Source: an uncultured Paracoccaceae bacterium (GTDB lineage Bacteria; Pseudomonadota; Alphaproteobacteria; Rhodobacterales; Rhodobacteraceae). Taken from it: DNA of 64,000 nt. Position numbers and translations under genes: made by a program. The stretch covers positions 62,001 to 126,000 of the forward strand of contig CANLND010000012.1 of the NCBI GenBank assembly GCA_947492585.1, read 5' to 3'. Shown here one piece after another: positions 14,070-60,097 of this stretch. Below the pieces are notes generated by a model. The model made no database searches, was not told where the DNA came from, and saw only the letters and a list, made by a program, of their open reading frames with translations. Numbering within the stretch: position 1 is the first letter of the stretch; every line of letters begins with the position of its first letter.

Positions 14070-14110
14070 ACGCGGGTAAAAGGCCTGATTTCCTGCATTT
14101 TCAGATCAAG

Positions 14111-14119: not shown

Positions 14120-14158
14120 GAATGGCCTCTGTGTCACCTCGTTTGGGTCCGTGAAATT

Positions 14159-14257: not shown

Positions 14258-14329
14258 GCGGGACAACAGATCTGGAAACCCAGAGAATCGCATCCCAAAA
14301 AACTGGGAGCATGGCACAGGGCAGGACGC

Positions 14330-37660: not shown

Positions 37661-37696
37661 TGAAATGAAATTTCCATTCGACTAGAGGAGGATAGA

Positions 37697-39625: not shown

Positions 39626-39637
39626 CTGTCTTTGAAA

Positions 39638-39719
39638 AAGTCATGTTGATCACTTCTTCCAAGTCAGCATGACTTACACCACGCGGAGCTGCTCCAAACC
39701 TCCCCGGTAGCAGCTCCGC
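39638..39719 (+). repeat. Two tandem stem-loops between binding-protein and permease genes
   Basis: Stem 1 is AAGTCATGTTGA (39638-39649) with TCAGCATGACTT (39664-39675), with one G-U pair. Stem 2 is GCGGAGCTGCT (39683-39693) with AGCAGCTCCGC (39709-39719), which is perfect. Neither is followed by a T-run. They probably protect the 3' end of the binding-protein message or attenuate the permease genes. Confidence 0.75.
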
Positions 39720-39745
39720 ACTCTCTTTGAATAAGGCTTGGACTG

Positions 39746-43671: not shown

Positions 43672-44592
43672 TCAGGCTGGAATAATTGCGCCGCGATGGG
43701 TGATGACTTTGGCGGCCAGATTGTGGCCGGTTTCCATCTGCACCTGAGGGGAGTGCCCCTGCACATAGGCCGCCAGATAGCCGGCATTAAAGCTGTCACC
43801 TGCGGCGGTGCTGTCGATCACCGTGTCAACGGTCTCCAAAGCCTGCGCCACGCTCTGACCGGCCAGATCACGCGGACCTTCGGCGCCGCGTTTGAGCGCC
43901 CCCGCGCAGACACCGCAGCCGCGCAGGCGGTCGAGCACAGCGGATTCGGATGTGTCACCGAACAGCGCCATTTCATCATCGATCGAGGGCAGGGCGATGT
44001 CTGCGAGCTGCCACATGCGGGTGTTGATCTGCTGGGCCGTGGCCTGATCTTCCCACAGGCGTGGCCGGTAGTTGCTGTCATAGGCGACGGTGCCACCATT
44101 GGCGCGAAATTGGGCAATAAAGTCGATCAGCTGAGCGCGCACGGCTGTGGGTAGGATTGCCATGGAAATGCCGGACACGTAAATCAGATCAAACTTGGCC
44201 AGCCGGTCCAGCGAGATCTCGCAGGGAGATTGAAACATCGTGCGCGCTGCGGCATCCGAGCGCCAATAGGTAAAGCTGCGCTCGCCTGCATCGTCGGTGT
44301 CTACGGCATAGAGGCCGGGGATTTTGTCGGATCTGGTTTCGACGCATGAGGTGTCCAGATCGTACTCTGTCAGCGCGCTGCGAATGATATCAGAATACGG
44401 ATCGGTCCCCAGCGCCGTGCAGTAGGACACGGTGACCTCGGTCGCGGCCAACAGGCGTTTTATGTAGACCGCAGTATTGTAGGTGTCGCCCGCCACGCCA
44501 AGCGCGATGTTTCCGTCACGGCCATTGATCAGTTCAATCATTACCTCTCCGAAGCAGCAGAGTGACTGAATGGGGCGTTTTGGGGTCGTCAT
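43672..44592 (-). CDS. kdgK: PfkB-family sugar kinase, 2-keto-3-deoxygluconate kinase-like
   Basis: The 306-residue kinase opens with CCFGEVMIELI and has the C-terminal catalytic motif DSTAAGDSFNAGYL, with the aspartate base intact. The first glycine of the common GAGD is alanine, as in many KDG kinases. It would phosphorylate 2-keto-3-deoxy sugar acids for Entner-Doudoroff aldolase. It starts at the base next to the GntR stop, so the two form one operon, divergent from the AldA/Ytf operon. This links the whole island to 2-keto-3-deoxy acid chemistry. Confidence 0.85.
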   Translation of the reverse strand: MTTPKRPIQSLCCFGEVMIELINGRDGNIALGVAGDTYNTAVYIKRLLAATEVTVSYCTALGTDPYSDIIRSALTEYDLDTSCVETRSDKIPGLYAVDTDDAGERSFTYWRSDAAARTMFQSPCEISLDRLAKFDLIYVSGISMAILPTAVRAQLIDFIAQFRANGGTVAYDSNYRPRLWEDQATAQQINTRMWQLADIALPSIDDEMALFGDTSESAVLDRLRGCGVCAGALKRGAEGPRDLAGQSVAQALETVDTVIDSTAAGDSFNAGYLAAYVQGHSPQVQMETGHNLAAKVITHRGAIIPA

Positions 44593-45300
44593 TTAAAGTT
44601 CTCCAAAGGTTTTTCGGACCTGTTCCCACGCGTTGTGCAGGTGGCTGCGCAGCGCGTTTTCGGCTGCGTCCGGGTCCCGCATGAGGATGGCCTCGTAGAT
44701 TTCGCGGTGGGAGTCATAATTGGCGCGGTTGCGATCCGGCAGGCGGGGCATCTGCGACCACTGCGGGGCCAGCCAGTTGGTGTAGGCTTTGTTGATGGCC
44801 GGCAGCACCGGATTGCGGGCGGTGTTGTAGAGCACCCGGTGAAACCCAATATCTGTTTCGTAAAAGGCGTCACTGTCGTGGATTGCGGCCTTGTTGGCGG
44901 CGAGGGCTTCTTTGAGCGCCAGAATGTCTTCTTTGGTGGCGTTTTTGGCCACTTCGCGCACCAGCGCGGCTTCGATGATGATGCGGGTGTCAAAGAGATT
45001 GCGCACGCCGCCGGGTTCATGCAGCAGATGGGTGACAATGCTTTCGAGGGCGTCAAAGGCGGCATCAAATCCCGGCTTTCGAACCACGGGACGGTGGCGC
45101 GGGCGGGCTTCGATCAGGCCTTTGTTGGACAGGGCAAGAACGGCTTCGCGCACGACAGTTCGACTGATGCCGAACTCTTCCATCAGGTTGCGTTCGGGGG
45201 GCAGGGGCTGGCCGTCTGCCAGCTCGCCGGTTTGAATTTTCTGCGCCAGACGCTGCACCACCAGATCGGCGGCCCGCCCTTTGTCTTCTTGTCCTTGCAC
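44593..45300 (-). CDS. FadR/GntR-family regulator (FCD type) of the sugar-acid island
   Basis: The 235-residue protein has a winged helix (about 10-75: LPPERNLMEEFGISRTVVREAVL) and an FCD effector domain (about 90-225). The start is a GTG at 45300 with AAAGGAA upstream. It is directly followed by kdgK and is divergent, across a 402-base gap, from the long AldA/Ytf operon. The gap contains a TTGGT-N3-ACCAA palindrome, which fits the operator type of this subfamily. Confidence 0.87.
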   Translation of the reverse strand: MQGQEDKGRAADLVVQRLAQKIQTGELADGQPLPPERNLMEEFGISRTVVREAVLALSNKGLIEARPRHRPVVRKPGFDAAFDALESIVTHLLHEPGGVRNLFDTRIIIEAALVREVAKNATKEDILALKEALAANKAAIHDSDAFYETDIGFHRVLYNTARNPVLPAINKAYTNWLAPQWSQMPRLPDRNRANYDSHREIYEAILMRDPDAAENALRSHLHNAWEQVRKTFGEL

Positions 45301-45572
45301 TGCGCATTCCTTTCCATTGCCCCGGATCTTGCGTTCGCAGGATCTGATGCGTGTTTAGTTGACGACCCGGCCTGAGTAAATCGCACCGGGTTGGGCTGTG
45401 ATTGCCGGGGCGCCGTTGGGGGATTTGGATCACCCGTGAACGTGTCGCCGTGGCGCGATGTGCGCAGGTCAATTTAGGGGCGTTCTGGCGGTGTCACATG
45501 GTGTCAGCTGGTGGGTCTTTTTTGATTCGTTGCTGTCTTTCCTTAGAAGTGCACATGTTGCGGACGGATTTA

Positions 45573-45691
45573 TGATCGCACCAAACAATATGAAAAGTAC
45601 ATCAAAAACAGCGCAAAACTACGGCATCGGATTAATTTCTTGACTGAACTCCCGTTTTAAGGAACAACTTGATATTGTTTGGTACGACCAA
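45573..45691. promoter_or_regulatory. Two GntR/FadR-type operator candidates in the divergent gap
   Basis: TTGGT-ACG-ACCAA (45679-45691) fits the TNGTNNNACNA pattern of FadR-subfamily regulators and lies just before the AldA gene start. A second site TGAT-CGC-ACCA is at 45573-45583. The two sit inside a longer inverted repeat (45577-45591 with 45672-45686, 14 of 15 bases matching), about 95 bases apart, which suits DNA looping. The remainder of 45301-45702 has no gene that I can support. Confidence 0.6.
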
Positions 45692-45702
45692 AAGGAAAAG
45701 TC

Positions 45703-47172
45703 GTGAAAGATTTCGACATTCAGTCAGGCAAGGTTCTGACGGCGCAGATGTTTATCGATGGGCAGTGGACCGCAGGCAGCAGCCGCGAGACCATTGAGGT
45801 GGAAAATCCAGCAAACGAGGCGGTGATCGCCACAACCCCATTGGGAACGGCCGAGGACGCTGCGGCGGCTGTTGACGCGGCGCGCCGTGCACAAGTCGCC
45901 TGGGCCAAAGTGCCCGCGGTGGAGCGCGGCCGTGTTGTGCGCAAATTGGGTGAACTGGTGCTGGCCCGCACCGACGAGTTCGCCCGGCTGATCACCGCCG
46001 AGCAGGGGAAGCCCCTAGATCAGGCCAAGGGCGAAGTGGGCGCGACGGCGGAATTTCTGTTCCACGCCGCCGACAATGCCCGCCGCATCGAAGGGGATAT
46101 TCTGGTTTCGGACAACCCGGATGAAGAAATCCATATTCGTCGCCACCCCTATGGCGTTGTGGTGGGTCTGACCTCGTGGAATTATCCCGCCGCTCTCGCC
46201 ACACGAAAGCTTGGACCTGCGTTGGTTGCGGGCAACGGATTTGTGCTGCTGGCCCATGAGATTACGCCGCTTTCGGGTCTGTTCATTGCGTTTCTGGCCG
46301 TCCAGGCTGGCGTGCCAGCCGGGCTGTTTAACGTTGTTGCCGGGCGCGGGGCCCAGGTGGGGCAGGCACTGGTTGAACATCCCGATACCGCGTTAATCAC
46401 CATGACCGGCAGCAATCGCGCGGGCCGCGAAATTTTCAAAGCAGGCGCTGAGGGCATGAAGGTGTTGCGCTTGGAACTGGGCGGCAAAGCCCCGTTTATT
46501 GTTCTGGAAGATGCCGACATCGACAAGGCCGTCGATGCGGCGGTGGTCGCGCGTTACACCAATTGCGGGCAGATCTGCACCTGCAACGAACGCATGTATC
46601 TGCACAAAGACATTGCTGACGAGTTTCTTGAGAAATTTGTCGCGAAATCGGCAGCTTTGACAATTGGAGACCCGATGGGCAACCCGGATATGGGCCCCAA
46701 AGTAAGTGGTCTTGAAGTCGATAAAGTTGCGTCCATCATCCAAACGGCGGTCACTGAAGGCGCGGAGGTTCTTTTGGAAGGAGGACCTTTGAGCGAAGGT
46801 GAATACGCCAAGGGGCATTGGATGGCCCCGACTGTGCTTGAGGTTAAAAACAACGCGGCATCTGTGGTCCAAAATGAGGTATTTGGACCGGTTGTTCCGG
46901 CGATCCGCGTTGATGATTTTGAGCAGGCGCTGGCGCTGGCCAATGACACGGCCTTTGGGCTGTCGGCCTATGTGTTCACACAAAATCACCGCCGGATCAT
47001 GCAAACCCCATACGCGCTGAATTTTGGCGAGATCTACGTCAACCGTGCAAACGGTGAGCAGGTTCACGCCTTTCACAACGGATGGGGGCAGTCGGGTCTA
47101 GGCGGGGAAGACGGGAAATATGGGTTCGATGCGTATCTGAGGAAGCAGAGCCTGTACGTAAACTGGGCGTAA
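45703..47172 (+). CDS. aldA: AldA-like aldehyde dehydrogenase (lactaldehyde/glycolaldehyde type)
   Basis: The 489-residue protein aligns along its length with E. coli AldA, which oxidises L-lactaldehyde and glycolaldehyde with NAD. The catalytic C292 sits in GQICTCNER, the Cys-x-Cys form typical of AldA. The general base glutamate is in LELGGKAPF. The usual KPSE cofactor motif is changed to LAHE, so the conserved lysine is L183; this is odd for an active ALDH. I chose the GTG at 45703, preceded by AAAGGAAAAG. It opens the long operon (57 bases to ytfQ). The aldehyde may come from a sugar-acid aldolase step. Confidence 0.85.
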   Translation: MKDFDIQSGKVLTAQMFIDGQWTAGSSRETIEVENPANEAVIATTPLGTAEDAAAAVDAARRAQVAWAKVPAVERGRVVRKLGELVLARTDEFARLITAEQGKPLDQAKGEVGATAEFLFHAADNARRIEGDILVSDNPDEEIHIRRHPYGVVVGLTSWNYPAALATRKLGPALVAGNGFVLLAHEITPLSGLFIAFLAVQAGVPAGLFNVVAGRGAQVGQALVEHPDTALITMTGSNRAGREIFKAGAEGMKVLRLELGGKAPFIVLEDADIDKAVDAAVVARYTNCGQICTCNERMYLHKDIADEFLEKFVAKSAALTIGDPMGNPDMGPKVSGLEVDKVASIIQTAVTEGAEVLLEGGPLSEGEYAKGHWMAPTVLEVKNNAASVVQNEVFGPVVPAIRVDDFEQALALANDTAFGLSAYVFTQNHRRIMQTPYALNFGEIYVNRANGEQVHAFHNGWGQSGLGGEDGKYGFDAYLRKQSLYVNWA

Positions 47173-47228
47173 GCCCAGACAACACGCGGCTAGGAGGTTT
47201 GGCCGCACTACAATTTGGAGGAATATCA

Positions 47229-48203
47229 ATGAAACGTCGTATTTTGCTAGGATCAGCCATTGCGCTGGGGTTGAGCTTTGGCGCCAGCGTCTCAAGCGCG
47301 GACACGCCCGCGTTGGCGCAAAAAGACACCTACCGTGTGGGGTTTGCCCAGATGGAATCCAATAACCCGTGGCGGATTGCGGAAACAAAATCCTTTCACG
47401 ACACCGCAGAGGCCTGCGGCTGGGATCTGATCGCAACGGATGCGGCGGGTTCTGCGGCGAAACAGGTTGCCGATGTGGACTCCATGATCGCGCAAGGCAT
47501 TGATGTATTGTTCCTGCCGCCCCGCGAAGAAAAGCCGCTTATTCCGGCCGTGATGAAGGCCAAAGCAGCTGGTATCCCAACCTTCTTGGTTGACCGTTCT
47601 GTTGACCCGAACGTTGCCCAGGCCGGGGAGCACTTTGTTGCGTTTCTTGGATCTGACTTCATTGAGCAGGGTGAGCGCGCGGCGGAATGGCTGATTGCGA
47701 ATTTCCCAGAAGACAAGGGCATCATTGTTGAGCTGGAAGGCACAACGGGGTCTTCGCCGGCGAATGACCGCAAGAAAGGGTTTGACGACCGCATTTTGCA
47801 AGACGATCGTTTTGAGATCGTAGCCTCCCAGACGGGTGACTTTGCGCGTGATCTTGGCCGTCAGGTTATGGAAACCCTGCTACAGGCGCATCCTGATGTG
47901 AATGTTGTCTATGCGCACAATGACGAGATGGCGATTGGCGCCATTCAAGCGTTGGAACTGGCGGGCCGCAAGCCGGGTGAAGACATCACCGTGGTCTCTA
48001 TCGACGGGACACGTGACGCGCTACAGGCGATCATTGATGGCAAAATGGGTGTGACGGTTGAAAGCTCGCCCTTCTTTGGTCCTTTGGCCTGTGAGGTCAT
48101 GAAGAAATATGCAGCCGGCGAAGAAATTCCGGGCTGGGTGAAGGTGGAAGACCGGGTGTTTACCGTGGACAACGCTGCCGACCACATCGACGAAGCATAT
48201 TGA
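47229..48203 (+). CDS. ytfQ: ABC sugar-binding protein, YtfQ-like (furanose type)
   Basis: This 324-residue periplasmic protein has a signal peptide (about 1-23) and the YtfQ-like core (VGFAQMESNNPWRIAETKS; later HNDEMAIGAIQALELAG). In E. coli YtfQ binds galactofuranose, and relatives bind arabinofuranose. GGAGG precedes the ATG at 47229. It is followed by the ATPase and two permease genes in the same order as ytfQRT-yjfF. The actual sugar here is not fixed by sequence. Confidence 0.88.
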   Translation: MKRRILLGSAIALGLSFGASVSSADTPALAQKDTYRVGFAQMESNNPWRIAETKSFHDTAEACGWDLIATDAAGSAAKQVADVDSMIAQGIDVLFLPPREEKPLIPAVMKAKAAGIPTFLVDRSVDPNVAQAGEHFVAFLGSDFIEQGERAAEWLIANFPEDKGIIVELEGTTGSSPANDRKKGFDDRILQDDRFEIVASQTGDFARDLGRQVMETLLQAHPDVNVVYAHNDEMAIGAIQALELAGRKPGEDITVVSIDGTRDALQAIIDGKMGVTVESSPFFGPLACEVMKKYAAGEEIPGWVKVEDRVFTVDNAADHIDEAY

Positions 48204-48267
48204 TTTCTCCCGGCGTCGAGGGGGCCTTGTGCCCCTTCGGCACCATATCATGAAAGGCGATGAGGGT

Positions 48268-49794
48268 ATGCAACACCTGATCGAAATGAGCGGGATTAAG
48301 AAATCGTTTGCGGGCGTCGTTGCTTTGCAAAATGCGAATTTACATATCGCACCGGGTGAAGTTCATGCCATCATTGGACAGAACGGTGCCGGAAAATCCA
48401 CTCTTATCAAAATTCTGACAGGCGTCTATCGACGTGACGCTGGTGAGGTCACAATCAACGGAACACCGTCAACAGTGTCGGCACCGCGTGAGGCGCAAGA
48501 CGCTGGAATCGCAACTATTTATCAAGAGCTTAGCCTGGTTCCCCTGCGCAGCGTGACGGAAAATGTCATGATGGGCTATGAACCACGCACGCGGTTTGGG
48601 ATGATCGACTGGAAAGCCGCCCATAAACGCACGCGCGAAATTCTGGACCGGTTTGGCATCAACATCGATGTAAAGGCGCAGTTGGGATCATTTTCCACGG
48701 CCATTCAACAGCTTGTTGCGATTGCACGGGCGGTTTCGTTGAATGCGCAATTGGTGATCATGGACGAGGCCACATCGTCACTGGATGATCAAGAGATCGA
48801 AATCTTGTTTAGCGTTGTGCGGGAGCTGAAAAAAGAAGGCGTTGCTGTTCTTTATATCTCTCACTTTCTGGATGAGCTGTATCAGATCTGTGATCGGGTT
48901 ACGATTATGCGGGACGGGCAGACGGTTGGTCAGCACGTGATTGCGGAGACCACCAAGCTTGGCCTGATTTCGGAAATGTTGGGTCGGGATCCAGAAGAGA
49001 TCGAAGCGGCCGGGATGACAGGTCTGGGGGGCGGCGAAAAAGCGACGCCGGGTGCACCGCTGTTTGAAGCAGAGCATATTTCCACGGCCCGTGGTCTGAA
49101 AGACGTCTCCTTGACCGTGCGCAAGGGTGAGATTGTTGGGCTGGGCGGATTGCTTGGCTCGGGGCGGACGGAAACGGCGCGGGCATTGTTTGGTTTGGAC
49201 GGTCTAAAGTCCGGCCATATCAACAGCCACGGCGGTGCGGGTCAGATTGGCACCCCCGCCGAGGCAATTGCGGCGGGGGTTGGGTTTCTGACCGAAGACC
49301 GCAAACGCGAAGGCATCGTGCCGCATATGACGGTGCGTGAGAATATGACCTTGGCGCTTTTGCCAAAGCTCAAGAAAATGGGGCGGGTGGATCGCAAACG
49401 CGAAACTGATCTGGTTGAGCGGTTCATCACATCGCTTGGGATCAAAACGTCGGGCATGGAGCAGCCCATTCGGGAGCTGTCCGGCGGCAATCAGCAAAAG
49501 GTTCTTTTGGCGCGTTGGCTGGCGTTGGAGCCGGAGGTGTTGATTTTGGATGAACCCACCCGCGGTGTGGATGTCGGCGCAAAATTTGAGATCCAATCGA
49601 TCATTCGCGAATATGTTGACCGGGGATTGGGGGTTTTGTTGATCAGTTCTGAATTTGAAGAGCTGGTAGAGGGGGCCGACCGTATTGTTGTGCTGCGCGA
49701 TGGGGCGTCCATCACCGAGCTGCAAAACCCTGGTGTCACCGAAGAAAGCCTGATTGCGGCCATCGCACATCATCACGCGGAGGCGGCGGCATGA
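48268..49794 (+). CDS. ytfR: ABC sugar transporter ATPase, YtfR-like, two nucleotide-binding domains
   Basis: The 508-residue protein is a tandem ATPase. Domain 1 has Walker A GQNGAGKST (37-45) and a diverged signature (STAIQQLVAIA). Domain 2 has no canonical Walker A lysine (GLLGSGRTE), as usual in this family, and a strong signature LSGGNQQKV. I chose the ATG at 48268 because AAAGG lies 10 bases upstream; an ATG at 48250 is the alternative. It overlaps the next gene by ATGA. Confidence 0.9.
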   Translation: MQHLIEMSGIKKSFAGVVALQNANLHIAPGEVHAIIGQNGAGKSTLIKILTGVYRRDAGEVTINGTPSTVSAPREAQDAGIATIYQELSLVPLRSVTENVMMGYEPRTRFGMIDWKAAHKRTREILDRFGINIDVKAQLGSFSTAIQQLVAIARAVSLNAQLVIMDEATSSLDDQEIEILFSVVRELKKEGVAVLYISHFLDELYQICDRVTIMRDGQTVGQHVIAETTKLGLISEMLGRDPEEIEAAGMTGLGGGEKATPGAPLFEAEHISTARGLKDVSLTVRKGEIVGLGGLLGSGRTETARALFGLDGLKSGHINSHGGAGQIGTPAEAIAAGVGFLTEDRKREGIVPHMTVRENMTLALLPKLKKMGRVDRKRETDLVERFITSLGIKTSGMEQPIRELSGGNQQKVLLARWLALEPEVLILDEPTRGVDVGAKFEIQSIIREYVDRGLGVLLISSEFEELVEGADRIVVLRDGASITELQNPGVTEESLIAAIAHHHAEAAA

Positions 49795-50792
49795 CCATGG
49801 ACAATAATGTGGTGCAAAATACGCCAAAATCCACGGGCCCCAAATTTGACTGGAGTCTGGTTGCGCGGAACGGTGGCGCGATTGCCCTTTTGGTGATCCT
49901 GCTGTTCAACGTGTTGGTTACGCCCAACTTTCTGCATCCCCAGACCCTGTTTGTGAACATCAGTCAGGTTGCCACCATCGCCATTGTTGCCGTTGGCATG
50001 ACATTGGTGATCGCCACTGGCGGGATTGATCTGAGCGTTGGCGCGATCATGGCTCTGTCTGGGGCATTGGCGCCGTTGATTTTCACCTCTCCCTTTGCCG
50101 AAGCAAATCCTGAGCTGGGTTTGGCGCTGTCGATCATAGTCCCCATTGTGGTGGCTTTGGCCTGTGGTGTCTTTAATGGCGCATTGGTGAGTTTGCTGAA
50201 TGTTCAGCCGATTGTTGCCACGCTGATTTTCTTTATCTCCGGGCGCGGCATTGCCTTGGTTCTGACGAATGGCAATCTGCAAACCTTTACCAATCCGGCC
50301 TTTAGCTATCTGGGGACGGGAAAGATTTTGGGATTTCCGTTCCAAGGGTATCTGGTGCTGATCATTGCGGTCTGCGTGTGGTGGGTGATGGCTTATACGG
50401 TGTTTGGGCGTCAGTTGCTGGCGGTTGGCGGCAATGAACGTGCGGCTGAGCTGTCAGGCGTGCCGGTGAAGCGGGTCAAAATCGGGGCATATGTGATTTG
50501 CGCCGGGCTGTCGGGTTTGGCGGGGTTGATTGTGGTTGCGATCAATTCCGCATCGGATGCGGCGCGGATTGGCAATCTGATGGAACTGGATGCAATCGCA
50601 GCTGCGGTTGTCGGCGGCACCTTGCTGCAGGGCGGCAAAGCGCCGATTTTCGGGGCCATCCTGGGCGCTGTGATCATTCAGCTTGTGAAATATACATTGC
50701 TGGCCAATGGGGTCGCCGACGAAGTCGCGCTGATCGCAAAGGCAGGCATCATCGTGCTGGCGGTCTATGTCCAGCAAGCACGGAAGGAATGA
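49791..50792 (+). CDS. ytfT: ABC sugar transporter permease, YtfT-like
   Basis: This 333-residue inner-membrane protein of the RbsC/AraH family has about nine helices. The segments [17 protein letters not shown] and the loop NERAAELSGVPVKRVKI are characteristic. It overlaps the ATPase gene and the second permease gene by 4 bases each, so these are translationally coupled. Confidence 0.9.
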   Translation: MTMDNNVVQNTPKSTGPKFDWSLVARNGGAIALLVILLFNVLVTPNFLHPQTLFVNISQVATIAIVAVGMTLVIATGGIDLSVGAIMALSGALAPLIFTSPFAEANPELGLALSIIVPIVVALACGVFNGALVSLLNVQPIVATLIFFISGRGIALVLTNGNLQTFTNPAFSYLGTGKILGFPFQGYLVLIIAVCVWWVMAYTVFGRQLLAVGGNERAAELSGVPVKRVKIGAYVICAGLSGLAGLIVVAINSASDAARIGNLMELDAIAAAVVGGTLLQGGKAPIFGAILGAVIIQLVKYTLLANGVADEVALIAKAGIIVLAVYVQQARKE

Positions 50793-51793
50793 GCCAGATG
50801 CTTGATACAACTGCGTTCGATCTGCGCCGCTATATTCAGGGCAACACCCATAGTCTTGGCGTTTGGATCACTTTGGTCGCGCTGATCCTGTTTGGGTTGC
50901 TCCGCTATGAAAATTTTGGCGGCGCCTATAATATTTCGTCGTTTCTCAACTACAACGCGATGTTCATCGTGATTGCCGTGGGCATGTGTTTCGTGATCAT
51001 GACCGGCGGCATTGATCTGTCGGTGGGGTCGGTTGCGGCCTTTACATCGGTGGTTGCCGCCTATCTGTCGCCATATGGCCTGCAAGTGGCGCTGCCCGGT
51101 GCAGTTGCGGCGGGGATTGCGATTGGCGGGCTGAATGCCTTTTTTGTGGTCGTCATGCGTATCCCCCCTTTTATCGCGACACTGGCAACCATGCTGGGCG
51201 CCAAGGGGGGCGCGCTGGTCATCTCTGGGGCGCAGACGATTTCCATTGATTGGGGCTCTAACTTTACCAAACTTGGGATGGAAAAAGCCTTTGGCGTCCT
51301 GCCGTGGACCATCGTGATCACGGCCATCGTCTGTGTTGGCCTTTGGGTGCTTCTTGAAAAGACCTCATTGGGGCGGACAGTTCTGGCCATTGGCGGCGGG
51401 GAAGACGCAAGCGTGATGATGGGTCTGAATGTGACCCGTGCAAAGGTGCTGGTCTATGTGATCAGCGGCGGCTGCGCGGGCATGGCGGGTCTGTTCCTGG
51501 CGTCGGGATTTGGGGCTGGTCAACCGCTGGAAGGCGTCGGCTGGGAGCTGTCGGCCATTGCGTCGGTGGTTGTTGGTGGCACCCTTTTGACAGGTGGCAT
51601 GGGGTCGATCTCGGCCACGGTTGCGGGCGCGCTGCTTTTGGGGCTCGTGTTTAATATTCTCAACTTCGAAAACGGTCGTGGGGTGATCAGCCTCAGCGCG
51701 TATTGGCAGATGGTTATCCGTGGTGCCTTTTTGTTTGTGGTGATCGTTTTCCAAAGCCGAGTGGCACGCTCGGCCAAAAAAGGAACTATCTAA
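50789..51793 (+). CDS. yjfF: ABC sugar transporter permease, YjfF-like
   Basis: The 334-residue second permease has the same family signature ([32 protein letters not shown]). AAGGA precedes the ATG at 50789, which overlaps the ytfT stop. The two different permeases make a heterodimeric channel, as in YtfT/YjfF. The dehydratase gene starts 2 bases after its stop. Confidence 0.9.
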
Positions 51794-51794
51794 A

Positions 51795-52895
51795 ATGGCA
51801 GAGATCACCAAAGTCACCGTTCGGGTCTTTGATGTCCCACTGGTCGAGGTCCTCTCGGATGCAAAACATGGTGACCACACTCACTTTGAACTGGTCACAG
51901 CAACTGTTCGGCTTGCCGATGGATCTGAGGGGACAGGGTATACCTATACCGGCGGTAAAGGTGGTCGAGCGATTGCTGCGATGATTGAACATGACTTGGC
52001 CGACTGGTTGGTCGGCCAAGACGCCACCGCAGTGGAAGACTTATATGACGCGATGCAGTGGCATCTGCATTACGTGGCACGCGGGGGCATCGCGTCGTTT
52101 GCGATTTCAGCGGTGGATATCGCGTTGTGGGATCTGCGGTGCAAGGCCGCGGGCCAGCCGCTTTGGCAGTATCTGGGCGGCGCACGTGGCGCCTGTCCGG
52201 CCTATGCGGGGGGAATTGATCTCAATTTCCCACTTCCCAAACTTCTGGCGTCGATCCAAGGCTATTTGGACCGCGGTTTTGATGCTGTGAAGATAAAGAT
52301 CGGCCAGCCGACGCTGGAGGAAGATCTTGCACGTATCAAAGCCGTGCGTGAGCTGATCGGGCCGGATATAAAATTCATGGTCGATGCCAATTATTCCATG
52401 TCGGTAGACGAGGCGATCAAGGCGGCGAAAGCGTTTGAACCTTTTGATCTTGTTTGGTTCGAAGAGCCGACAATCCCCGATGATTATATCGGGTTTGGAG
52501 AGATCGCCAAACACTCTACCATCCCGCTTGCGATGGGGGAAAACCTGCATACGATCCACGAGTTCGAATATGCGTTTGCCCAGTCCAATCTAGGGTTTAT
52601 CCAGCCGGATGCGTCCAACTGTGGGGGGGTGACGGGCTGGCTTCAAGTGGCCGAGCTGAGCCGCAAACATGGGGTGACGCTTTGTTCACATGGCATGCAG
52701 GAACTCCACGTGAGCCTCTTGGCGGCGCAGACAAACGCGGGCTGGATCGAGGTCCATTCGTTCCCGATTGATCAGTACACAACTCAACCGCTTCAAATCG
52801 AAAACCACATGGCACTGGCTCCGACGGATCCGGGTGTTGGCGTGACCTTTGATTGGGGCAAACTAGAAGACGCACATAAGGAAATGCATTCATGA
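51795..52895 (+). CDS. Enolase-superfamily sugar-acid dehydratase (mandelate-racemase subgroup)
   Basis: The 366-residue protein has a full active site: K166-I-K168 on the second strand, metal ligands D197, E223 and E249, and H299 in SHG. This is the pattern of aldarate/aldonate dehydratases such as talarate/galactarate or fuconate dehydratase. It would convert an aldonic or aldaric acid into a 2-keto-3-deoxy acid, the substrate for KDG kinase or for the SDR and hydrolase encoded nearby. It lies between the transporter and the dehydrogenase genes, overlapping the latter by ATGA. Confidence 0.87.
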
Positions 52896-53929
52896 ATGCG
52901 AAAACGATGAACGCGGCGTATTATCGCGGCAACAAAACATTTGCCGTTGAACAGGCGCCGGTTCCAACCCCCGGTGCAGGTGACGTCACCATTCGCGTGG
53001 CCTATTGCGGGATCTGCGGGACAGATATGCATGTCTATCACGGCAATATGGATGCGCGTGTTGGCCACAATCGGATTGTCGGTCACGAGATGTCTGGCGT
53101 TGTTGACTCTGTTGGCGAAGGTGTCACCGGTTTTGAGGCTGGTCAGAAAGTGACCGTTCGCCCCCTGGACCCGGATCTGGAGTGCCCGGCCTCGCAGGCG
53201 GGGTATCCGCATGTGTCCCACAATATGAAATTTCTCGGTTTGGATACCGATGGGGCCATGCAGGAGCTGTGGACGGTGCCGGCCTTTACGGTCCATGCAC
53301 TGCCCGACAACATCAAACTGGATCATGCCGCATTGGTCGAACCGGTTGCGGTGGCCTGTCATGACGTGCGCCTGTCCGAGCTGAAAGAAGGCGAAGACGT
53401 GGTTGTCGTGGGCGGCGGACCAATTGGCATTCTGGTGGCCATGGTGGCCCGCGATGCCGGCGGCAAGGTGACGGTTTCTGAAGTCAATGAAAACCGTTTG
53501 GCGGTTGCGGCCAAGCTTGGCTTTGACACGGTGAATCCCGCCAAAGAGGATCTGGTTGCGATCATCAATGAAAAGACCGGCAACAAAGGCGCTGAGGTGG
53601 TGTTTGAAGTGTCCGGCTCGCAGCCGGGGGTTGACGCTACAACCGCTGTTGCCGCGACGCGGGGCCGGATTGTGATGGTTGCGATCCATGCGAAAAAACC
53701 AACGGTTGATATGTTCCAATACTTCTGGCGTGAGCTGAAGCTGATTGGGGCACGTGTGTATGAACCTGAAGATTACGAACACGCAATTTCGCTTGTGGCG
53801 TCTGGTGTGATCGAGGCGGATACCATCATCACCGACGTCAGCCCATTGTCAGACATCCAGGCGGCGTTTGAATCGCTGGACAGCACCCCAACCGCGATGA
53901 AGAGCCTGATCAAAGTGGGAGATCTGTAA
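52892..53929 (+). CDS. MDR-family (zinc alcohol dehydrogenase-like) polyol/sugar-acid dehydrogenase
   Basis: This 345-residue enzyme has the catalytic-zinc residues ([16 protein letters not shown]) and a Rossmann motif [13 protein letters not shown]. The four-cysteine structural zinc lobe typical of this family is absent: the region (about residues 90-110, [16 protein letters not shown]) has a single cysteine. A role in oxidising a sugar acid or polyol is inferred from the operon. Met6 is an alternative start. Its stop overlaps the next ATG. Confidence 0.83.
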
Positions 53930-54699
53930 TGAACGTCCTGTCGAGTTTTGATCTGAGCGGCAAAACGGCCGTTGTCACCGGCTGCAAACGCGGCATTGGT
54001 CGCGGGATGGCCGAGGCGCTGGCAGCGGCCGGGGCCGATATTGTTGGCGTCAGCGCCACGTTGGAGCTGTCCGGGAGCGCGGTTGAGACCGCTGTGCGGG
54101 CCATGGGGCGAGAGTTTAAAGCCTATCAATGTGACTTTAAATCTCGTGACGCGGTGCGTGGATTTGCGGCCCAGCTTGAGGCGGATGGCGTAGCGCCAGA
54201 CATTCTGATCAACAATGCGGGAACCATCAAACGGGCCCCGGCTGCGGATCATGAAGATGCCCTATGGGATGAAGTGATCGATGTGAACCTGTCGGCGCAA
54301 TTTATCCTGTCGCGTGAGATTGGTCGCGGGATGATTGAACGTGGCCGTGGAAAAATCATTTTCACCGCTTCTTTGCTGACATTTCAGGGCGGGATCACGG
54401 TTCCGGGCTATGCGGCGTCGAAGGGCGCGATTGGTCAGTTGACCAAAGCGCTGGCCAATGAATGGGCGGGCAAAGGGCTGAACGTCAACGCCGTTGCTCC
54501 GGGGTACATCGCCACCGACAACACGCAGGCATTGCAGGATGACCCGGTGCGCTCCAAGGCGATCCTTGAGCGTATTCCACAGGGACGTTGGGGCACGCCG
54601 CAGGATTTCGCAGGTCCGGTGGTGTTTCTGGCCTCTGAGGCGTCGAACTATGTGAACGGTGAAATCTTGGTCGTCGATGGCGGCTGGATGGGTCGCTAG
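53929..54699 (+). CDS. kduD: SDR-family oxidoreductase, KduD-like
   Basis: This 256-residue classical SDR has cofactor motif TGCKRGIGRG, NNAG, catalytic serine in TASLLTFQGG, YAASK, and the C-terminal VDGGWMGR. Overall it resembles 2-deoxy-gluconate/2-keto-3-deoxygluconate 5-dehydrogenase (KduD), which interconverts 2-keto-3-deoxy-gluconate and its 5-keto form. It closes the 9-kb operon that begins with the AldA-like gene. The name is tentative since SDR substrates are hard to predict. Confidence 0.75.
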   Translation: MNVLSSFDLSGKTAVVTGCKRGIGRGMAEALAAAGADIVGVSATLELSGSAVETAVRAMGREFKAYQCDFKSRDAVRGFAAQLEADGVAPDILINNAGTIKRAPAADHEDALWDEVIDVNLSAQFILSREIGRGMIERGRGKIIFTASLLTFQGGITVPGYAASKGAIGQLTKALANEWAGKGLNVNAVAPGYIATDNTQALQDDPVRSKAILERIPQGRWGTPQDFAGPVVFLASEASNYVNGEILVVDGGWMGR

Positions 54700-54942: not shown

Positions 54943-55929
54943 TTAGCGGAACATCAATTGCGCGCTCAGATTTTGGATCATCGGGTTTGATGTTGTTGCG
55001 GTGTGATCGCCTAGCAGCAGGTGCATTGCCTGCTGGGCGAGATGTTCGATGGGCAATTTGATGGTGGAAATGCCGCCGGACACCCATGCGTAATATGACG
55101 GATCGCCATAGCCGATGAACCCGAAGTCGCGTCCGGGGGCTACGTCTTGATCCATAAGAGCGCTGAGCGCGCCGTTGGAGATCTCGACGCCGCCGCAGAT
55201 CAATGCGGTTGCGGTCTTTCCGTGCAGCAACAGCGAGGCGCAGGCGTGCCCCATTTCAAAGGAGGGGCTGCCGGTGTGCACAAGCGTTTTGTTTTCGACC
55301 AGACCGGCAGATGCCAGTCCGCTGCGAAACGCCCCAAGACGATGCTGGCCGGACGACAGCGTGTTGTCGGCGCCGATATATCCAATCGCCGCGTGTCCTG
55401 CCTGCGCCAGATGTGCAACCGCGTCTTGGATGGCGGTGTGATCTTCGATCAAAATCAGGGCGCGGGTGCCGTCGATGGGGCGTTGGCGCACCAGTTGAAT
55501 GATGTTCAAACCAAACGACGGGCTGTCGATGGGCGGCGCGCTGTCCGGGGCCGGCACCATGAGAACGGCCATGGCCTGCACTTCACTCAGGCGCTCAAGA
55601 GCCGCGCGTTCTTGGGCGATGTCGTCATTGGTGAGATGGATCATCAGATGCAGTGAGTTTTCTTCGCAGGCGAGGGCCAGAGCATTGGCAAAACGGGCGT
55701 AGAATTCATTGATGATATTGGGCAGCAAAAGCCCGACGATTTTGGTGCCGTCCCCGCGCATCGTCTTGGCGGCAGCGCTTTTGACATATCCAAGTGCACG
55801 CGCCCGTGTGATGATGGTTTCGCGGGTTTCCGGGCTGACATTCGGATGATCTGAAAGCGCGCGCGAGACCGTCATATGTGAGATGCCGAGATCCTGGGCG
55901 ATGGATTTGATAGTCACGCGTTTGGCCAC
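54943..55929 (-). CDS. LacI-family transcriptional regulator
   Basis: The 328-residue protein has an N-terminal LacI helix-turn-helix (about 4-25: TIKSIAQDLGISHMTVSRAL) with hinge, then a periplasmic-binding-protein-like effector domain. The start is a GTG at 55929 with AAGGAGAT upstream. It is divergent from the kinase/enolase-paralog operon, and two palindromic operator candidates lie between them. It most likely represses that operon until a sugar-derived inducer binds. Confidence 0.9.
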   Translation of the reverse strand: MAKRVTIKSIAQDLGISHMTVSRALSDHPNVSPETRETIITRARALGYVKSAAAKTMRGDGTKIVGLLLPNIINEFYARFANALALACEENSLHLMIHLTNDDIAQERAALERLSEVQAMAVLMVPAPDSAPPIDSPSFGLNIIQLVRQRPIDGTRALILIEDHTAIQDAVAHLAQAGHAAIGYIGADNTLSSGQHRLGAFRSGLASAGLVENKTLVHTGSPSFEMGHACASLLLHGKTATALICGGVEISNGALSALMDQDVAPGRDFGFIGYGDPSYYAWVSGGISTIKLPIEHLAQQAMHLLLGDHTATTSNPMIQNLSAQLMFR

Positions 55930-55955: not shown

Positions 55956-56023
55956 TTTAGCAAAGATGCTAAATCCTGTCTTGACGTAAATGTTTGTTTC
56001 AGACTAGTTGTTCACGTGAACAA
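55956..56023. promoter_or_regulatory. Two palindromic LacI-type operator candidates
   Basis: TTTAGCA-AAGA-TGCTAAA (55956-55973) and the perfect 16-base palindrome TTGTTCACGTGAACAA (56008-56023) lie in the gap between the LacI gene and the kinase gene. The second has the CG-centred form common for LacI-family operators and overlaps an alternative kinase start. Confidence 0.65.
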
Positions 56024-56040
56024 TGCAAGGAACATCATCC

Positions 56041-57054
56041 GTGCCCGCCACGTTAGAACAGCGATGTCGTGATCTTGTGGTCGAGCTTGGGCTTGGCACG
56101 GCCACAGATGTCACCACAGTGCAGCCGCTCACGGGGGGGGTGGCGTCTGATATTGCCATGGTGGCGCTTCCGGGGCGCAAATTGTGTTTGAAATTTGCGC
56201 TGGCAAAGCTGCGTGTTGCCGCCGACTGGCAAGCGCCCGTGCATCGCAATGCGGCGGAGTACGCCTGGCTCACTGAGGTAGCCCGTATTTTCCCTGACAG
56301 TTCTGTGCGGCTTTATGGGCAATCTGACACTGCGCATGGGTTTGCGATGGAGTATTTAGACGGCGCGGGGGTCTACCTGTGGAAGGACGCCTTGCTTGCT
56401 GAGGCGCCAGAGCAGGGGGAAGCGGCCCGCGTCGCCGACAGGCTGGGCCAGATACAAGCGGCGTCGACGCGGCCCGGATTTGACGCCAGAGCGTTTCAAA
56501 ATCGCGGCGATTTTCGGGCGCTGCGGATTGAACCCTATCTGGGCTATACGGCGGAGCGTCACCCTGAATTGGCGGATGTTCTGGGAGCGTTGGGGGCACT
56601 GTTGTACGACAATAATACCGTATTGGTGCACGGGGATGTGAGCCCAAAAAACATCCTGTTCCGTGCGGGGACGCCGTTTTTTCTGGATGCGGAATGCGCG
56701 GTGATGGGCGATGCCAGTTTTGATCCGGCGTTTTGCCTGAATCACCTGATTTTGAAGGCCGTCCACCTGCCGGGATCGACCGATGGTCTGCTGGCACAGG
56801 TCCGCGCCTTTTGGGCGGCGTATGCGCCGCATATCACATGGGAGGCGCCAGACGCGTTGGAGGCACGGGTGTGTCGCCTGCTGCCTGCGCTGATGCTGGC
56901 GCGGGTCGATGGAAAATCTCCCGTGGAATATCTGGATGAGACCGCGCGTGACGTTGTGCGCCGCGTGGCGATCCCACTGATCCAATCACCTGTCCAACAG
57001 GTCGAAACATTTGTCGAAACTCTGGCCTTTGCGCTCAAGGAAATACGTTCATGA
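56041..57054 (+). CDS. APH-fold small-molecule kinase of unknown substrate
   Basis: This is a phosphotransferase-family (aminoglycoside phosphotransferase/choline kinase fold) protein of 337 residues. Numbered from an upstream ATG at 56023 it shows a glycine loop GGVAS (38-42), lysine K58 (LCLKFA), catalytic HGDVSPKN with D205 and N210, and metal-binding D222 (LDAE). I prefer the GTG at 56041 as start because AAGGA lies about 10 bases upstream, while the ATG overlaps the operator. Its stop overlaps the start of the enolase paralog (ATGA). Antibiotic resistance is unlikely; it probably phosphorylates a sugar acid or a related hydroxy acid made by this island. Confidence 0.75.
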   Translation: MPATLEQRCRDLVVELGLGTATDVTTVQPLTGGVASDIAMVALPGRKLCLKFALAKLRVAADWQAPVHRNAAEYAWLTEVARIFPDSSVRLYGQSDTAHGFAMEYLDGAGVYLWKDALLAEAPEQGEAARVADRLGQIQAASTRPGFDARAFQNRGDFRALRIEPYLGYTAERHPELADVLGALGALLYDNNTVLVHGDVSPKNILFRAGTPFFLDAECAVMGDASFDPAFCLNHLILKAVHLPGSTDGLLAQVRAFWAAYAPHITWEAPDALEARVCRLLPALMLARVDGKSPVEYLDETARDVVRRVAIPLIQSPVQQVETFVETLAFALKEIRS

Positions 57055-58361
57055 CGGCGATCAAATCAATATCCGGGCGACGCGTCTGGGATTCCCGCGG
57101 CAACCCTACGGTAGAGGTTGATGTGGTGTTGGAAAACGGTGTGCGGGGCCGCGCAATCGCGCCTGCTGGGGCTTCCCGGGGATCGCGTGAGGCCATTGAC
57201 CTGCGCGATGGTGGCCCTGCGCTGCGGGGCAAGGGGGTCGAAAAGGCGTTGGCCAGTGTGAACGGTCCCCTTGCGTCTGCACTGATCGGGTGTGATGCGG
57301 GGGATCAATCTGCGGCGGACCACGTGATTTTGGGGCTCGACCCTTCGCCGTTAAAGGACCGTTTGGGCGGGAATGCGACGGTTGCGACGTCTTTGGCGAT
57401 CATGCACGCCGCCGCCGCCGATGCGGGGGATCCTTTGTGGCGTTACGTTGCGACCAAATATGGCTGTACGCCGTCGCTGCCTTTGCCCGAAATCCAGATC
57501 TTTGGCGGCGGTGCCCATGCCGGTCGTCGCGTGGACATTCAGGATTTCATGATCATGGTGCCGGGCGCCAAGACATTTGACGAGGTCATGGAAGTGACCA
57601 ACGAGGTCTATTTTGCGGCCGGTGACATCATGGCGTCACGTGGGAATCTGGCGGGCGTAGCAGATGAGGGTGGCTGGTGGCCGGTTTTCAACAGCAATGA
57701 AGAAGCGCTGGAAACGCTGGTTCAGGCGATTGAAAAAGCGGGGGAAAAGCCGGGAGAGAATGTGGTGATTTCGCTTGATATCGCGGCTTCCGAATTTGGA
57801 CAGAACGGCACCTATCGTCTGGGGTTGGACGATCGGGAGATGGACAGTGGCCGGATGATCGACATGTTGGGGGGCTGGATTGAGACCTATCCGATTGCCT
57901 CTATCGAGGATCCACTGGGCGAAGACGACAAGGACGGCATTGTCGAATTTACGCGTCGTTTTGGCGACCGTGTCCAGATTATCGGGGATGATTATCTGGT
58001 GACCAATGCCGCCCTGGTCGATGAGGCCATAGAGGATGAGGCCTGCAATGCGGTTTTGATCAAGGTAAACCAGATTGGCACCGTATCAGAAGCGATCGAC
58101 ACGTTTCACACCGCCAAGGACGCTGGGTGGGGAACAATTGTGTCCGCCCGGTCGGGCGAAACCGAAGACGCGTCGATTTCCCATCTCAGCACCGGTTTGG
58201 GCGGCGGCCAACTAAAAGTCGGCTCGTTTCAGCGGTCGGAACGTATGGTCAAATGGAACGAATGCCTGCGTATTCAGGACGAATTAGGGCAGGACAGCTT
58301 TGCGGGGGGGCGTGCGCTGGCGCAGACCTGGTGGGGCACAGAAAACAACAAGGACAACTGA
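57051..58361 (+). CDS. Divergent enolase paralog, probable phospho-sugar-acid dehydratase
   Basis: The 436-residue protein is clearly enolase-like from start (SGRRVWDSRGNPTVEVDVV) to end. Conserved relative to yeast enolase: metal ligands D243, E286, D313; base K338; K401; E206 in DEGG; H156; S42; and phosphate-site R367-S368. Changed: yeast H373 (SHRSG) is A366 (SARSG), E168 is D165, the loop threonine T40 is R43 and H43 is R46, and the Asn before GGAHA is glycine. These positions surround the leaving hydroxyl and the mobile loops, so ordinary glycolytic enolase activity is doubtful and a larger phosphorylated sugar acid is plausible. It is translationally coupled to an APH-fold kinase and followed by an FAH hydrolase. 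Confidence 0.82.
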   Translation: MTAIKSISGRRVWDSRGNPTVEVDVVLENGVRGRAIAPAGASRGSREAIDLRDGGPALRGKGVEKALASVNGPLASALIGCDAGDQSAADHVILGLDPSPLKDRLGGNATVATSLAIMHAAAADAGDPLWRYVATKYGCTPSLPLPEIQIFGGGAHAGRRVDIQDFMIMVPGAKTFDEVMEVTNEVYFAAGDIMASRGNLAGVADEGGWWPVFNSNEEALETLVQAIEKAGEKPGENVVISLDIAASEFGQNGTYRLGLDDREMDSGRMIDMLGGWIETYPIASIEDPLGEDDKDGIVEFTRRFGDRVQIIGDDYLVTNAALVDEAIEDEACNAVLIKVNQIGTVSEAIDTFHTAKDAGWGTIVSARSGETEDASISHLSTGLGGGQLKVGSFQRSERMVKWNECLRIQDELGQDSFAGGRALAQTWWGTENNKDN

Positions 58362-58363
58362 CA

Positions 58364-59212
58364 ATGAAACTGATGCGTTACGGAGACCGGACAGGCTCTA
58401 AAATCCCGTGCCTATTGGATGCGGACGGCGTGGCGCGCGATGCGTCAAGTATTGTGGGTGACTTTGAGGCGCACAGGCTGACGGCTGATGTCATCGCGCA
58501 GCTCAGAACTGTAGATCCAACCACATTGCCCAAGGCGGATGTGGCGGGCAAACGCGTGGCGGCCCCAGTGGGGCAGCCGTCGAACATCTACTGTATCGGT
58601 CTGAACTATTCAGATCATGCGGCAGAGGCCGGATTGCCGGTGCCCGAGGAACCAATTCTGTTTAACAAATCCTCCGTGACCTACTGCGGTCCCAATGACG
58701 ACATTCTTTTTAGTGAAAAGATGACCAAGCTGGATTGGGAAGTCGAATTGGGTGTGGTGATTGGCAAGAAGGCTTTGAACATTTCCCGCGAAGAGGCGCT
58801 GGATCATGTGTTGGGCTATGTGCTGGTGAATGATGTCAGCGAACGGGCGTGGCAGCTTGAACGTGGCGGGCAGTGGGCCAAAGGCAAAAGCTTCCCGAAC
58901 TTCTGTCCGACGGGCCCGGTTTTGGTGTCTGGTGATGAAATCGGTCATGCACAGGCGCTGTCGATGTGGCTAGATGTGAATGGCACGCGCATGCAGACCG
59001 GCAACACCGATACGATGATTTTTGATGTGGCCACTATCGTAAGTTACCTGAGCGAATTCACCGAACTGCAACCGGGTGATTTGATTTCAACCGGCACACC
59101 TCCGGGTGTAGGGGCGGGGATGACACCGCAGGTTTGGCTACAACCGGGCGATAAGGTTTCGCTGGGAATCGAAGGTTTGGGCACGCAAACGCAGACTGTT
59201 GTGGCGCTTTGA
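58364..59212 (+). CDS. FAH-family hydrolase, 2,4-diketo-3-deoxy-acid hydrolase-like
   Basis: This 282-residue fumarylacetoacetate-hydrolase-family protein has the metal-binding pattern E-V-E (WEVELGVVIG) and the family segment YVLVNDVSERAWQ. It is close in type to hydrolases that cleave 2,4-diketo-3-deoxy-fuconate or -rhamnonate to pyruvate plus a hydroxy acid. AAGGA lies before the ATG at 58364. It starts 2 bases after the enolase-paralog stop, and an SDR follows 132 bases later, supplying a plausible preceding oxidation step. Confidence 0.82.
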   Translation: MKLMRYGDRTGSKIPCLLDADGVARDASSIVGDFEAHRLTADVIAQLRTVDPTTLPKADVAGKRVAAPVGQPSNIYCIGLNYSDHAAEAGLPVPEEPILFNKSSVTYCGPNDDILFSEKMTKLDWEVELGVVIGKKALNISREEALDHVLGYVLVNDVSERAWQLERGGQWAKGKSFPNFCPTGPVLVSGDEIGHAQALSMWLDVNGTRMQTGNTDTMIFDVATIVSYLSEFTELQPGDLISTGTPPGVGAGMTPQVWLQPGDKVSLGIEGLGTQTQTVVAL

Positions 59213-59344: not shown

Positions 59345-60097
59345 ATGAATATGGTTGATCTAACAGGACGGCGCGCGGTGATCACGGGCGGAGGCCGCGG
59401 CATGGGCTTTGCCGTTGCCAAGCGTTTTTTGGAACGTGGTGCGTCTGTTTCGATTTGGGACATCAGCGAAGAGACCCTGAAACAGGCCGCACAAAGGCTG
59501 TCTTTGCTGGGCAATGTCGACACTCAGGTTGTGGACGTTTCAGACTATGCCAGTGTCGAAACCGCCGCGGCGCAGGTTGAACGCACTCTGGGCGGGATAG
59601 AGTTGCTGGTAAATTCGGCTGGGATCGCAGGTGTCAATGTTCCGGTGACGGATTACCCTCTTGAGACGTGGTATGCGGTGCAGAACGTAAACCTGAACGG
59701 CATTTTTCACACCTGCCGCGCCATCGTACCGATCATGCAGAAATCGGATTACGGGCGCATTGCAAATATCGCGTCCATTGCAGGGAAGGAGGGCAACCCC
59801 AATGCCTCGGCCTATTCCGTTTCAAAAGCAGCGGTGATCGGGCTGACAAAATCATTGGGTAAAGAGCTGGCGACTTCAAACATTCGGGTTAACGCGCTGT
59901 GCCCTGCTGTGATCCGCACCGAAATGCTGGACGATGTGACCGAAGAGCAGTTGCAGTATATGTTGGCCAAAATCCCAATGGGTCGTCCAGGCACGGTCGA
60001 TGAAATCGCAGCGATGGTGTCGTTTATGTGCTCTGAGGAGTGTTCCTATACCACGGGGTTTGTGTTTGACATGTCGGGCGGGCGTGCGACGTATTGA
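59345..60097 (+). CDS. SDR-family oxidoreductase, sugar-acid or sugar dehydrogenase-like
   Basis: This 250-residue classical SDR has TGGGRGMG, NSAG, catalytic serine in IASIAGKEG, and YSVSK. GAAGGAG precedes the ATG at 59345. It resembles dehydrogenases for rhamnose/fucose or for 2-keto-3-deoxy acids in the non-phosphorylating diketo pathway, where the product is then cut by an FAH hydrolase, as encoded just upstream. The exact substrate is not determined. Confidence 0.8.
   Translation: MNMVDLTGRRAVITGGGRGMGFAVAKRFLERGASVSIWDISEETLKQAAQRLSLLGNVDTQVVDVSDYASVETAAAQVERTLGGIELLVNSAGIAGVNVPVTDYPLETWYAVQNVNLNGIFHTCRAIVPIMQKSDYGRIANIASIAGKEGNPNASAYSVSKAAVIGLTKSLGKELATSNIRVNALCPAVIRTEMLDDVTEEQLQYMLAKIPMGRPGTVDEIAAMVSFMCSEECSYTTGFVFDMSGGRATY

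Follow-up and report, generated by a model that had tools for sequence, protein, structure and literature searches.

A conserved pair of an APH-fold kinase and an enolase paralog, and a possible route from L-glycerate to phosphoenolpyruvate

We have analyzed two coupled genes in a stretch of 64,000 nucleotides (the window) from an uncultured marine Paracoccaceae bacterium (contig CANLND010000012.1), one encoding a kinase of the APH fold and the other a paralog of enolase. In enolase (phosphopyruvate hydratase, TIGR01060) the leaving water is held by His373, Glu168 and Glu211 (yeast enolase numbering, marked here by three-letter code). The paralog resembles enolase in its fold and in most of the catalytic residues, but differs in two residues of the pocket, in having a kinase partner, in coexisting with a canonical-type enolase and in lying on a separate branch of the tree. 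A repurposed enolase homolog, with a changed substrate, is also found in the CPEP synthase of bialaphos biosynthesis, and the literature text that we found gave no support on this point. The non-phosphorylating route 3 of L-fucose and L-rhamnose breakdown (FucF/FucG, LRA5/LRA6), to which the genes downstream of our pair are related, ends in pyruvate and L-lactate according to the portions of PMC11199699 that were available; our locus has a kinase and an enolase paralog in addition. In the accessible text of the CpgD papers (including PMC13228409), 2-phospho-L-glycerate figures only as an assay substrate. Our search of titles and abstract openings, from which subscription journals were mostly outside coverage, found among the papers listed no described pairing of a kinase with an enolase paralog. 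The reading that we favor, with a probability of roughly four in ten, is that the kinase makes 2-phospho-L-glycerate and that the paralog converts this to phosphoenolpyruvate (PEP).

The genes immediately concerned are arranged as follows.

54943..55929, minus strand: LacI-family repressor (Pfam LacI and Peripla_BP_3), divergent from the kinase operon
56008..56023, no strand: perfect 16-bp palindrome TTGTTCACGTGAACAA, found by repeat search, predicted LacI operator
56041..57054, plus strand: APH-fold kinase (Pfam APH, 57 bits); the open reading frame 56023-57054 opens at an ATG at 56023
57051..58361, plus strand: enolase paralog (TIGR01060, 463 bits; cut-off 300), A366 for His373 and D165 for Glu168
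58364..59212, plus strand: FAH-family hydrolase, nearest solved protein L-2,4-diketo-3-deoxyrhamnonate hydrolase
59345..60097, plus strand: SDR dehydrogenase (SDR2), candidate 2-keto-3-deoxy-acid 4-dehydrogenase or enzyme of another sugar step

The stop codon of the kinase and the start codon of the paralog share an ATGA overlap that can be read directly from the sequence. The ATG of the FAH gene lies two bases 3′ of the paralog stop, and 132 bases then separate it from SDR2. The GTG at 56041 is a likelier start for the kinase than the ATG at 56023, because it is preceded by an AAGGA stretch and because the palindrome overlaps the upstream ATG. The overlap and the GTG start were both part of an earlier, sequence-only reading of this DNA, and we find no reason to alter them.

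The paralog is an enolase by fold. It contains the Enolase_N and Enolase_C domains and scores above the TIGR01060 equivalog cut-off, and its AlphaFold2 (AF2) model, with a predicted local distance difference test score (pLDDT) of 90.8, superimposes on E. coli enolase with a template modeling (TM) score of 0.94. Alignment was made to E. coli enolase and to the canonical enolase of the same genome, which lies on a different contig and is 43% identical to the paralog. The metal ligands D243, E286 and D313 are retained, together with K338 (Lys345), E206 (Glu211), H156 (His159), R367-S368 (Arg374-Ser375) and K389 (Lys396). The sequence-only reading had identified the metal ligands, K338 and R367-S368 in the same way, but had listed K401, whereas the equivalent of Lys396 is K389.

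The pocket differs from that of enolase at two positions, where A366 replaces His373 and D165 replaces Glu168, as had been noticed earlier. A search with the paralog found 314 places encoding a relative, of which the best 80 were kept as the locus set for our counts. On recounting, both changes were present in 80 of these 80 loci, with Lys345, Lys396 and Glu211 retained, and this altered pocket marks the paralog family. The complete alignment has 111 rows, in which the gene of the window and several genomes appear twice; the sole departure among its additional rows is a copy on an Enterobacter plasmid (L105), in which Gly stands at position 373 and Lys at position 211. Judged by the water-holding pair His373/Glu168, the paralog falls outside the 2-phospho-D-glycerate hydratases. 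Since these residues hold the leaving water, the change would be aimed at the end of the substrate that carries the C3 hydroxyl.

The phylogeny divides the sequences in the same way. In a tree of 60 sequences, a single branch with support of 100/99 parts 37 paralogs from 23 canonical enolases; this tree leaves out L105 and L176, which have very long branches, the partial sequence L177, and L178, which has the same sequence as L050. A quick tree of all 64 rows places the divergent L176 between the groups, and the split then needs two changes. The stretch around position 373 reads SHRSGE in 21 of 25 extracted enolases and SARSGE in two, both paralogs; it reads SNRSGE in L176, and one partial sequence lacks it. 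L176 is itself a very divergent enolase paralog, and its genome contains three genes of the enolase kind. By its two pocket residues and by the tree, the paralog of the window departs from the 2-phospho-D-glycerate hydratases.

APH was the only family that a Pfam scan reported for the kinase at E ≤ 0.001, and no PF02595 (Gly_kinase) or PF05161 (MOFRL) domain was found at this limit. Its HGDxSPKN and DAEC motifs show no variation among 45 aligned sequences. The AF2 model (pLDDT 95) is nearest in fold to methylthioribose kinase (MtnK; TM 0.81), and the HGD...N and D catalytic motifs are shared with MtnK and with other APH-fold kinases of small molecules. However, the identity to MtnK is 16%, and the score against its family TIGR01767 is 33.6 bits, under a cut-off of 275 bits. 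The kinase would resemble the glycerate 2-kinases (GarK, and the MOFRL/GckA types) in the proposed 2-phosphorylation of glycerate, but it belongs to Pfam APH and not to Gly_kinase or MOFRL; those tabulated in the available part of PMC2063504 prefer D-glycerate.

The kinase and the paralog are kept together. A kinase homolog lies within 10.5 kb of the paralog in 78 of the 80 loci, and in 69 the two genes share a strand and either adjoin each other or overlap (68 by script, plus L033, counted by hand, where the kinase frame extends 79 bases into the paralog). The kinase is several kb distant in eight Rhizobium loci and in L011. The two exceptions to pairing are L051, at a contig end, and L030, which has no kinase in the 2.5 kb of upstream sequence covered. 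Conservation to this extent rules out a chance association, and the outcome that the sequence-only reading had named as refuting it, a pair not kept together in relatives, did not occur. The pairing count was restricted to the 80 paralog loci; the neighborhood set of 109 loci adds those from kinase searches, with genes called by a purpose-written caller.

We also surveyed 295 genomes of the family, with limits of E ≤ 1e-115 for the paralog and E ≤ 1e-20 for the kinase, a difference that may have let a very divergent paralog escape the search. With the genome of the window included, the paralog was found in 18 and the kinase in 20. All 18 have both genes, and the two extra kinases are fragments. 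In a sample of the phylum there was a kinase match in 10 of 398 genomes, counting that of the window and one fragment. Plasmids yielded 32 kinase records, and all 13 of the regions fetched contain the paralog, including the degenerate Enterobacter copy (L105) and a pair that reads in pieces (L110). The hosts of plasmid pairs include Rhodococcus, Methylobacterium, Sphingobium, Persicobacter and haloarchaea. The kinase-paralog unit is common to many bacteria and some archaea. In annotated plasmid records the genes are mostly named phosphopyruvate hydratase or enolase, and phosphotransferase or aminoglycoside phosphotransferase.

Some of the plasmid matches deserve a comment of their own. On the Enterobacter plasmid (L105:8259-10984) a divergent kinase accompanies a degenerate enolase-like protein annotated as hypothetical, among neighbors that suggest a biosynthetic cluster. 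In PLSDB an enolase-like match occurs in 683 Escherichia plasmid records, and in 339 of 1119 records with such matches a single place covers 80% or more of the query. A Cupriavidus plasmid (L181) carries an rraA gene, and its ppc lies directly 5′ of an enolase of the canonical type (SHRSGE).

The paralog is not the sole enolase of its genome, as a canonical-type enolase is present in the genome of the window and in all the others that were tested. A second enolase, 41-47% identical, was present in each of the 30 pair genomes searched; one of these enolases is partial at a contig end, another is split in two and a third has an in-frame TGA. In the 17 genomes where the sequence could be read, it shows the canonical SHRSGE. 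A MOFRL glycerate-kinase domain is present in 26 of the 30 and in the genome of the window; a PF02595-type glycerate kinase was not found in the latter, to which that search was confined. A further conversion of D-glycerate into PEP would therefore be redundant in these organisms.

We then consider the genes that follow the pair. The FAH protein scores 364 bits against NF053535 (2,4-diketo-3-deoxy-L-rhamnonate hydrolase), under the cut-off of 500, and L-2,4-diketo-3-deoxyrhamnonate hydrolase is its nearest relative in the PDB, as in route 3. Across 93 loci (the 80 paralog loci and the 13 plasmid regions), an FAH homolog of at least 60% identity is present in 28 and an SDR2 homolog of at least 45% identity in 24. 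Twenty of the 28 FAH loci also hold an SDR that is 52-70% identical to that of locus L003 (L003 itself, 100%). The L003 protein alone was compared with the PDB, the remaining SDRs being assigned as its homologs; its best matches are human DHRS6 and entries 8y11, 8y46, 8xwk and 8y4j. In the available part of PMC11199699, 8Y46 and 8Y4J are L-2-keto-3-deoxyfuconate (L-KDF) 4-dehydrogenase, for which kcat/Km is 5.3-fold lower with L-2-keto-3-deoxygalactonate (L-KDGal) and 105-fold lower with D-2-keto-3-deoxygluconate (D-KDGlu) than with L-KDF. The second likeness to route 3 is thus a neighboring SDR of the L-KDF 4-dehydrogenase kind. IlvD dehydratases lie within the operon in L008, L022 and L040.

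On the other side of the LacI gene, positions 43672-54699 hold a nearly complete operon for 3,6-anhydro-L-galactose, a sugar of agar. Besides the genes listed here, it has a sugar ABC transporter and a divergent regulator that is FadR-like by eye.

43672..44592, minus strand: PfkB kinase, putative 2-keto-3-deoxygluconate (KDG) kinase (NF052444, 312 bits; cut-off 400)
45679..47172, plus strand: aldehyde dehydrogenase (Pfam Aldedh), putative 3,6-anhydro-L-galactose dehydrogenase
51795..52895, plus strand: 3,6-anhydro-L-galactonate cycloisomerase (5xd7, E 3e-165), which would make L-KDGal
52892..53929, plus strand: zinc alcohol dehydrogenase of the agar-sugar operon
53929..54699, plus strand: KduD-like SDR (TIGR01832, 315 bits; cut-off 339)

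The cycloisomerase aligns with 5xd7 over residues 4-359 of 366, effectively its whole length, and because of this evident enzyme the genes at 45679-54699 should make L-KDGal. An operon of this kind, in the same gene order, adjoins the pair in L003 and L013/L184; in L003 and L184 an aldehyde dehydrogenase homolog stands ahead of its cycloisomerase gene. In the family survey a cycloisomerase homolog (E ≤ 1e-110) was found in 11 of the 18 genomes with the pair and in 44 of the other 277 (one-sided Fisher test, 4e-5, on genomes that are not independent); for UxuA, taken as a control, the same test on 11 of 18 and 110 of 277 gave p = 0.06. Four of the 11 genomes carry the cycloisomerase on the same contig as the pair, about 4 to 51 kb away, and seven on a separate one.

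These associations suggest the following route, in which kinase and paralog would act in succession to pass a three-carbon 2,3-dihydroxy acid to central metabolism. A hexonic acid would be dehydrated to a 2-keto-3-deoxy acid; the SDR would oxidize this at C4, and the FAH hydrolase would cleave the product into pyruvate and glycerate, all three steps being assigned from homology. The kinase would then phosphorylate the 2-hydroxyl of glycerate, and the paralog would form PEP by taking the alpha proton and expelling the 3-hydroxyl. Dehydration is the chemistry to be expected, because the metal ligands, Lys345, Lys396, Glu211, Arg374 and Ser375 are all retained. Glycerate fits the pair, since it has a 2-hydroxyl to phosphorylate and a 3-hydroxyl to eliminate, and since the FAH and SDR steps on a hexonate give pyruvate and glycerate, the pair may more simply handle glycerate, probably as the L form. 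Oxidation of L-KDGal at C4 followed by hydrolysis would yield pyruvate and L-glycerate, since its C5 is L. The acid would most likely be L-glycerate, and the paralog a 2-phospho-L-glycerate hydro-lyase. With a substrate of the L form it would be understandable that these genomes keep a separate enolase with a remodeled pocket beside its kinase, though they can already convert D-glycerate into PEP. A more tentative proposal is the general one, that there is a widespread and undescribed route from L-glycerate to PEP, in which an APH-fold protein would for the first time be a glycerate 2-kinase and an enolase would for the first time have gone over to the L enantiomer, 2-phospho-L-glycerate.

A number of observations weigh against L-glycerate. 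If 2-phospho-L-glycerate were bound by its carboxylate and phosphate as in enolase, the C2 proton would be directed away from Lys345, and both Lys345 and Glu211 are retained in the paralog. The D-2-hydroxyacid dehydrogenase family usually makes D acids, and a relative is found nearby in 20 of 109 loci. L033 has genes resembling galactarate dehydratase and tartronate-semialdehyde reductase, below curated cut-offs, as for D-glycerate, and another linked dehydratase, MR36, resembles D-galactonate dehydratase. The agar-sugar operon needs no FAH branch, because it has an exit of its own (zinc alcohol dehydrogenase, KduD-like SDR and KDG kinase), and seven of the 18 family pair genomes have no close cycloisomerase homolog; for these two reasons we rejected that operon as the sole explanation of the pair. 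Searching the window with the L003 protein found no FucF-like SDR, and SDR2 alone is present. In 31 of 43 FAH loci there is no homolog of the three dehydratases queried in the DNA covered, and several pairs stand without a nearby FAH gene or sugar operon. The geometry at Lys345, the D-acid neighbors, the gar-like genes of L033, the separate agar-sugar exit, the second linked dehydratase, the missing dehydratases and the stand-alone pairs are the reasons why our confidence in L-glycerate is modest.

In the sequence-only reading the kinase would phosphorylate a larger 2,3-dihydroxy acid at its 2-hydroxyl, and the paralog would yield the enol phosphate of a 2-keto-3-deoxy acid. Given the roles of His373 and Glu168, both substitutions would make room around the C3 hydroxyl, and the idea is kept open because of the 31 FAH loci in which no queried dehydratase was seen. 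That reading also drew on arginines of the mobile loop, which are common in the family but not universal. The arginine at Thr40 is present in the paralog of the window but in only 61 of the 80 loci, and the one at His43 is not special, as E. coli enolase also has arginine there; the argument from the loop is weak, and we have set these residues aside as determinants of the substrate. The IlvD dehydratases inside three of the operons also count against a larger acid, and so does the fact that in annotated plasmid regions neither a phosphatase nor a pyruvate-kinase gene is listed immediately next to the pair. One archaeal region has a HAD-IIA hydrolase some 5 kb from the pair, and in L063 a Metallophos protein is near the pair, next to a gene of 1148 residues, the latter two perhaps being SbcCD. 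On balance we find the larger acid doubtful.

It is unlikely that the pair performs the ordinary conversion of D-glycerate to D-2-phosphoglycerate and PEP, duplicated for separate regulation. The linked D-2-hydroxyacid dehydrogenase relatives, accompanied in Rhizobium by PEP carboxylase, and the gar-like genes of L033 would be in keeping with it. In the part of PMC2063504 that was available, four tabulated glycerate kinases make 2-phosphoglycerate and have lower activity on L-glycerate, at 13-34% in the three tested. The redundancy described above argues in the opposite direction, and both water-holding residues are invariantly changed. In yeast enolase, changes at His373 and Glu168 are harmful. 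Least probable is a reaction in which a 2-phospho-3-substituted propionate loses a group other than water, such as sulfite or an amine, again giving PEP, for while both invariant changes sit at the site of the leaving water and a Roseibium cluster includes a sulfatase gene, a sulfatase is listed in only one annotated plasmid region, and sugar-acid genes recur around the pairs.

The presence of a LacI regulator and of sugar-acid genes beside the pair had likewise been recognized from the sequence. A LacI homolog is divergent from the kinase and adjoins it in 27 of the 80 loci. A copy of the palindrome with no more than two mismatches lies 5′ of the kinase in 29 of 76 testable loci, including all 27 with a divergent LacI gene. 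In 23 genomes selected as carrying the site at their locus, 19 contain a single exact copy of the 14-mer core and four contain two, and a reversed control gave no matches. Second sites are found 5′ of a TRAP binding protein gene in L008 and L013, of a tripartite tricarboxylate transporter (TTT) in L104 and of an SDR-sugar-transporter operon in L031. The L006 genome also carries a second site, and that of the window has a site with one mismatch elsewhere. With its divergent LacI gene and conserved palindromic site the operon has the marks of LacI regulation. The local LacI protein probably controls it, together with a transporter for acids or sugars in certain genomes, the binding of the repressor being deduced from these sites.

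Further observations concern the surroundings. Positions 36422-43615 of the window encode a second dehydratase of the MR type, resembling D-galactonate dehydratase, together with an ABC transporter of the Opp type. In L104 and L015 the pair has a homolog of this dehydratase nearby, and parts of the transporter occur in L003, L034, L104 and downstream of L024 (L185). In L107, L113 and L108 (Rhizobium, Sphingobium and Rhodococcus) the pair lies among genes resembling a ring-cleavage pathway, which include a VOC protein or an extradiol-type dioxygenase (Rhizobium, Sphingobium), a cupin, a 2-hydroxyacid dehydrogenase and an FAH protein (Sphingobium, Rhodococcus). Lastly, a Rep3-type replication initiator is encoded at 14048-15607 of the window, and the contig may therefore be an extrachromosomal replicon.

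The pair, its setting and its altered pocket thus stand as first described, while K401 and the loop argument do not, and a larger 2-phospho acid is not established. The finding is real, better supported than the first description could know, and probably concerns a different substrate. Enolase is usually treated as a fixed enzyme of glycolysis, and a rebuilt pocket with a constant kinase partner would show that its substrate can change. The names given to these genes in annotation may hide a step of carbon metabolism. If the proposed route is correct, degraders of L-sugars, such as the agar sugars of red algae, gain a direct entry to central metabolism. It would also show the fate of the three-carbon half in some non-phosphorylating hexose routes, which matters for the turnover of seaweed sugars.

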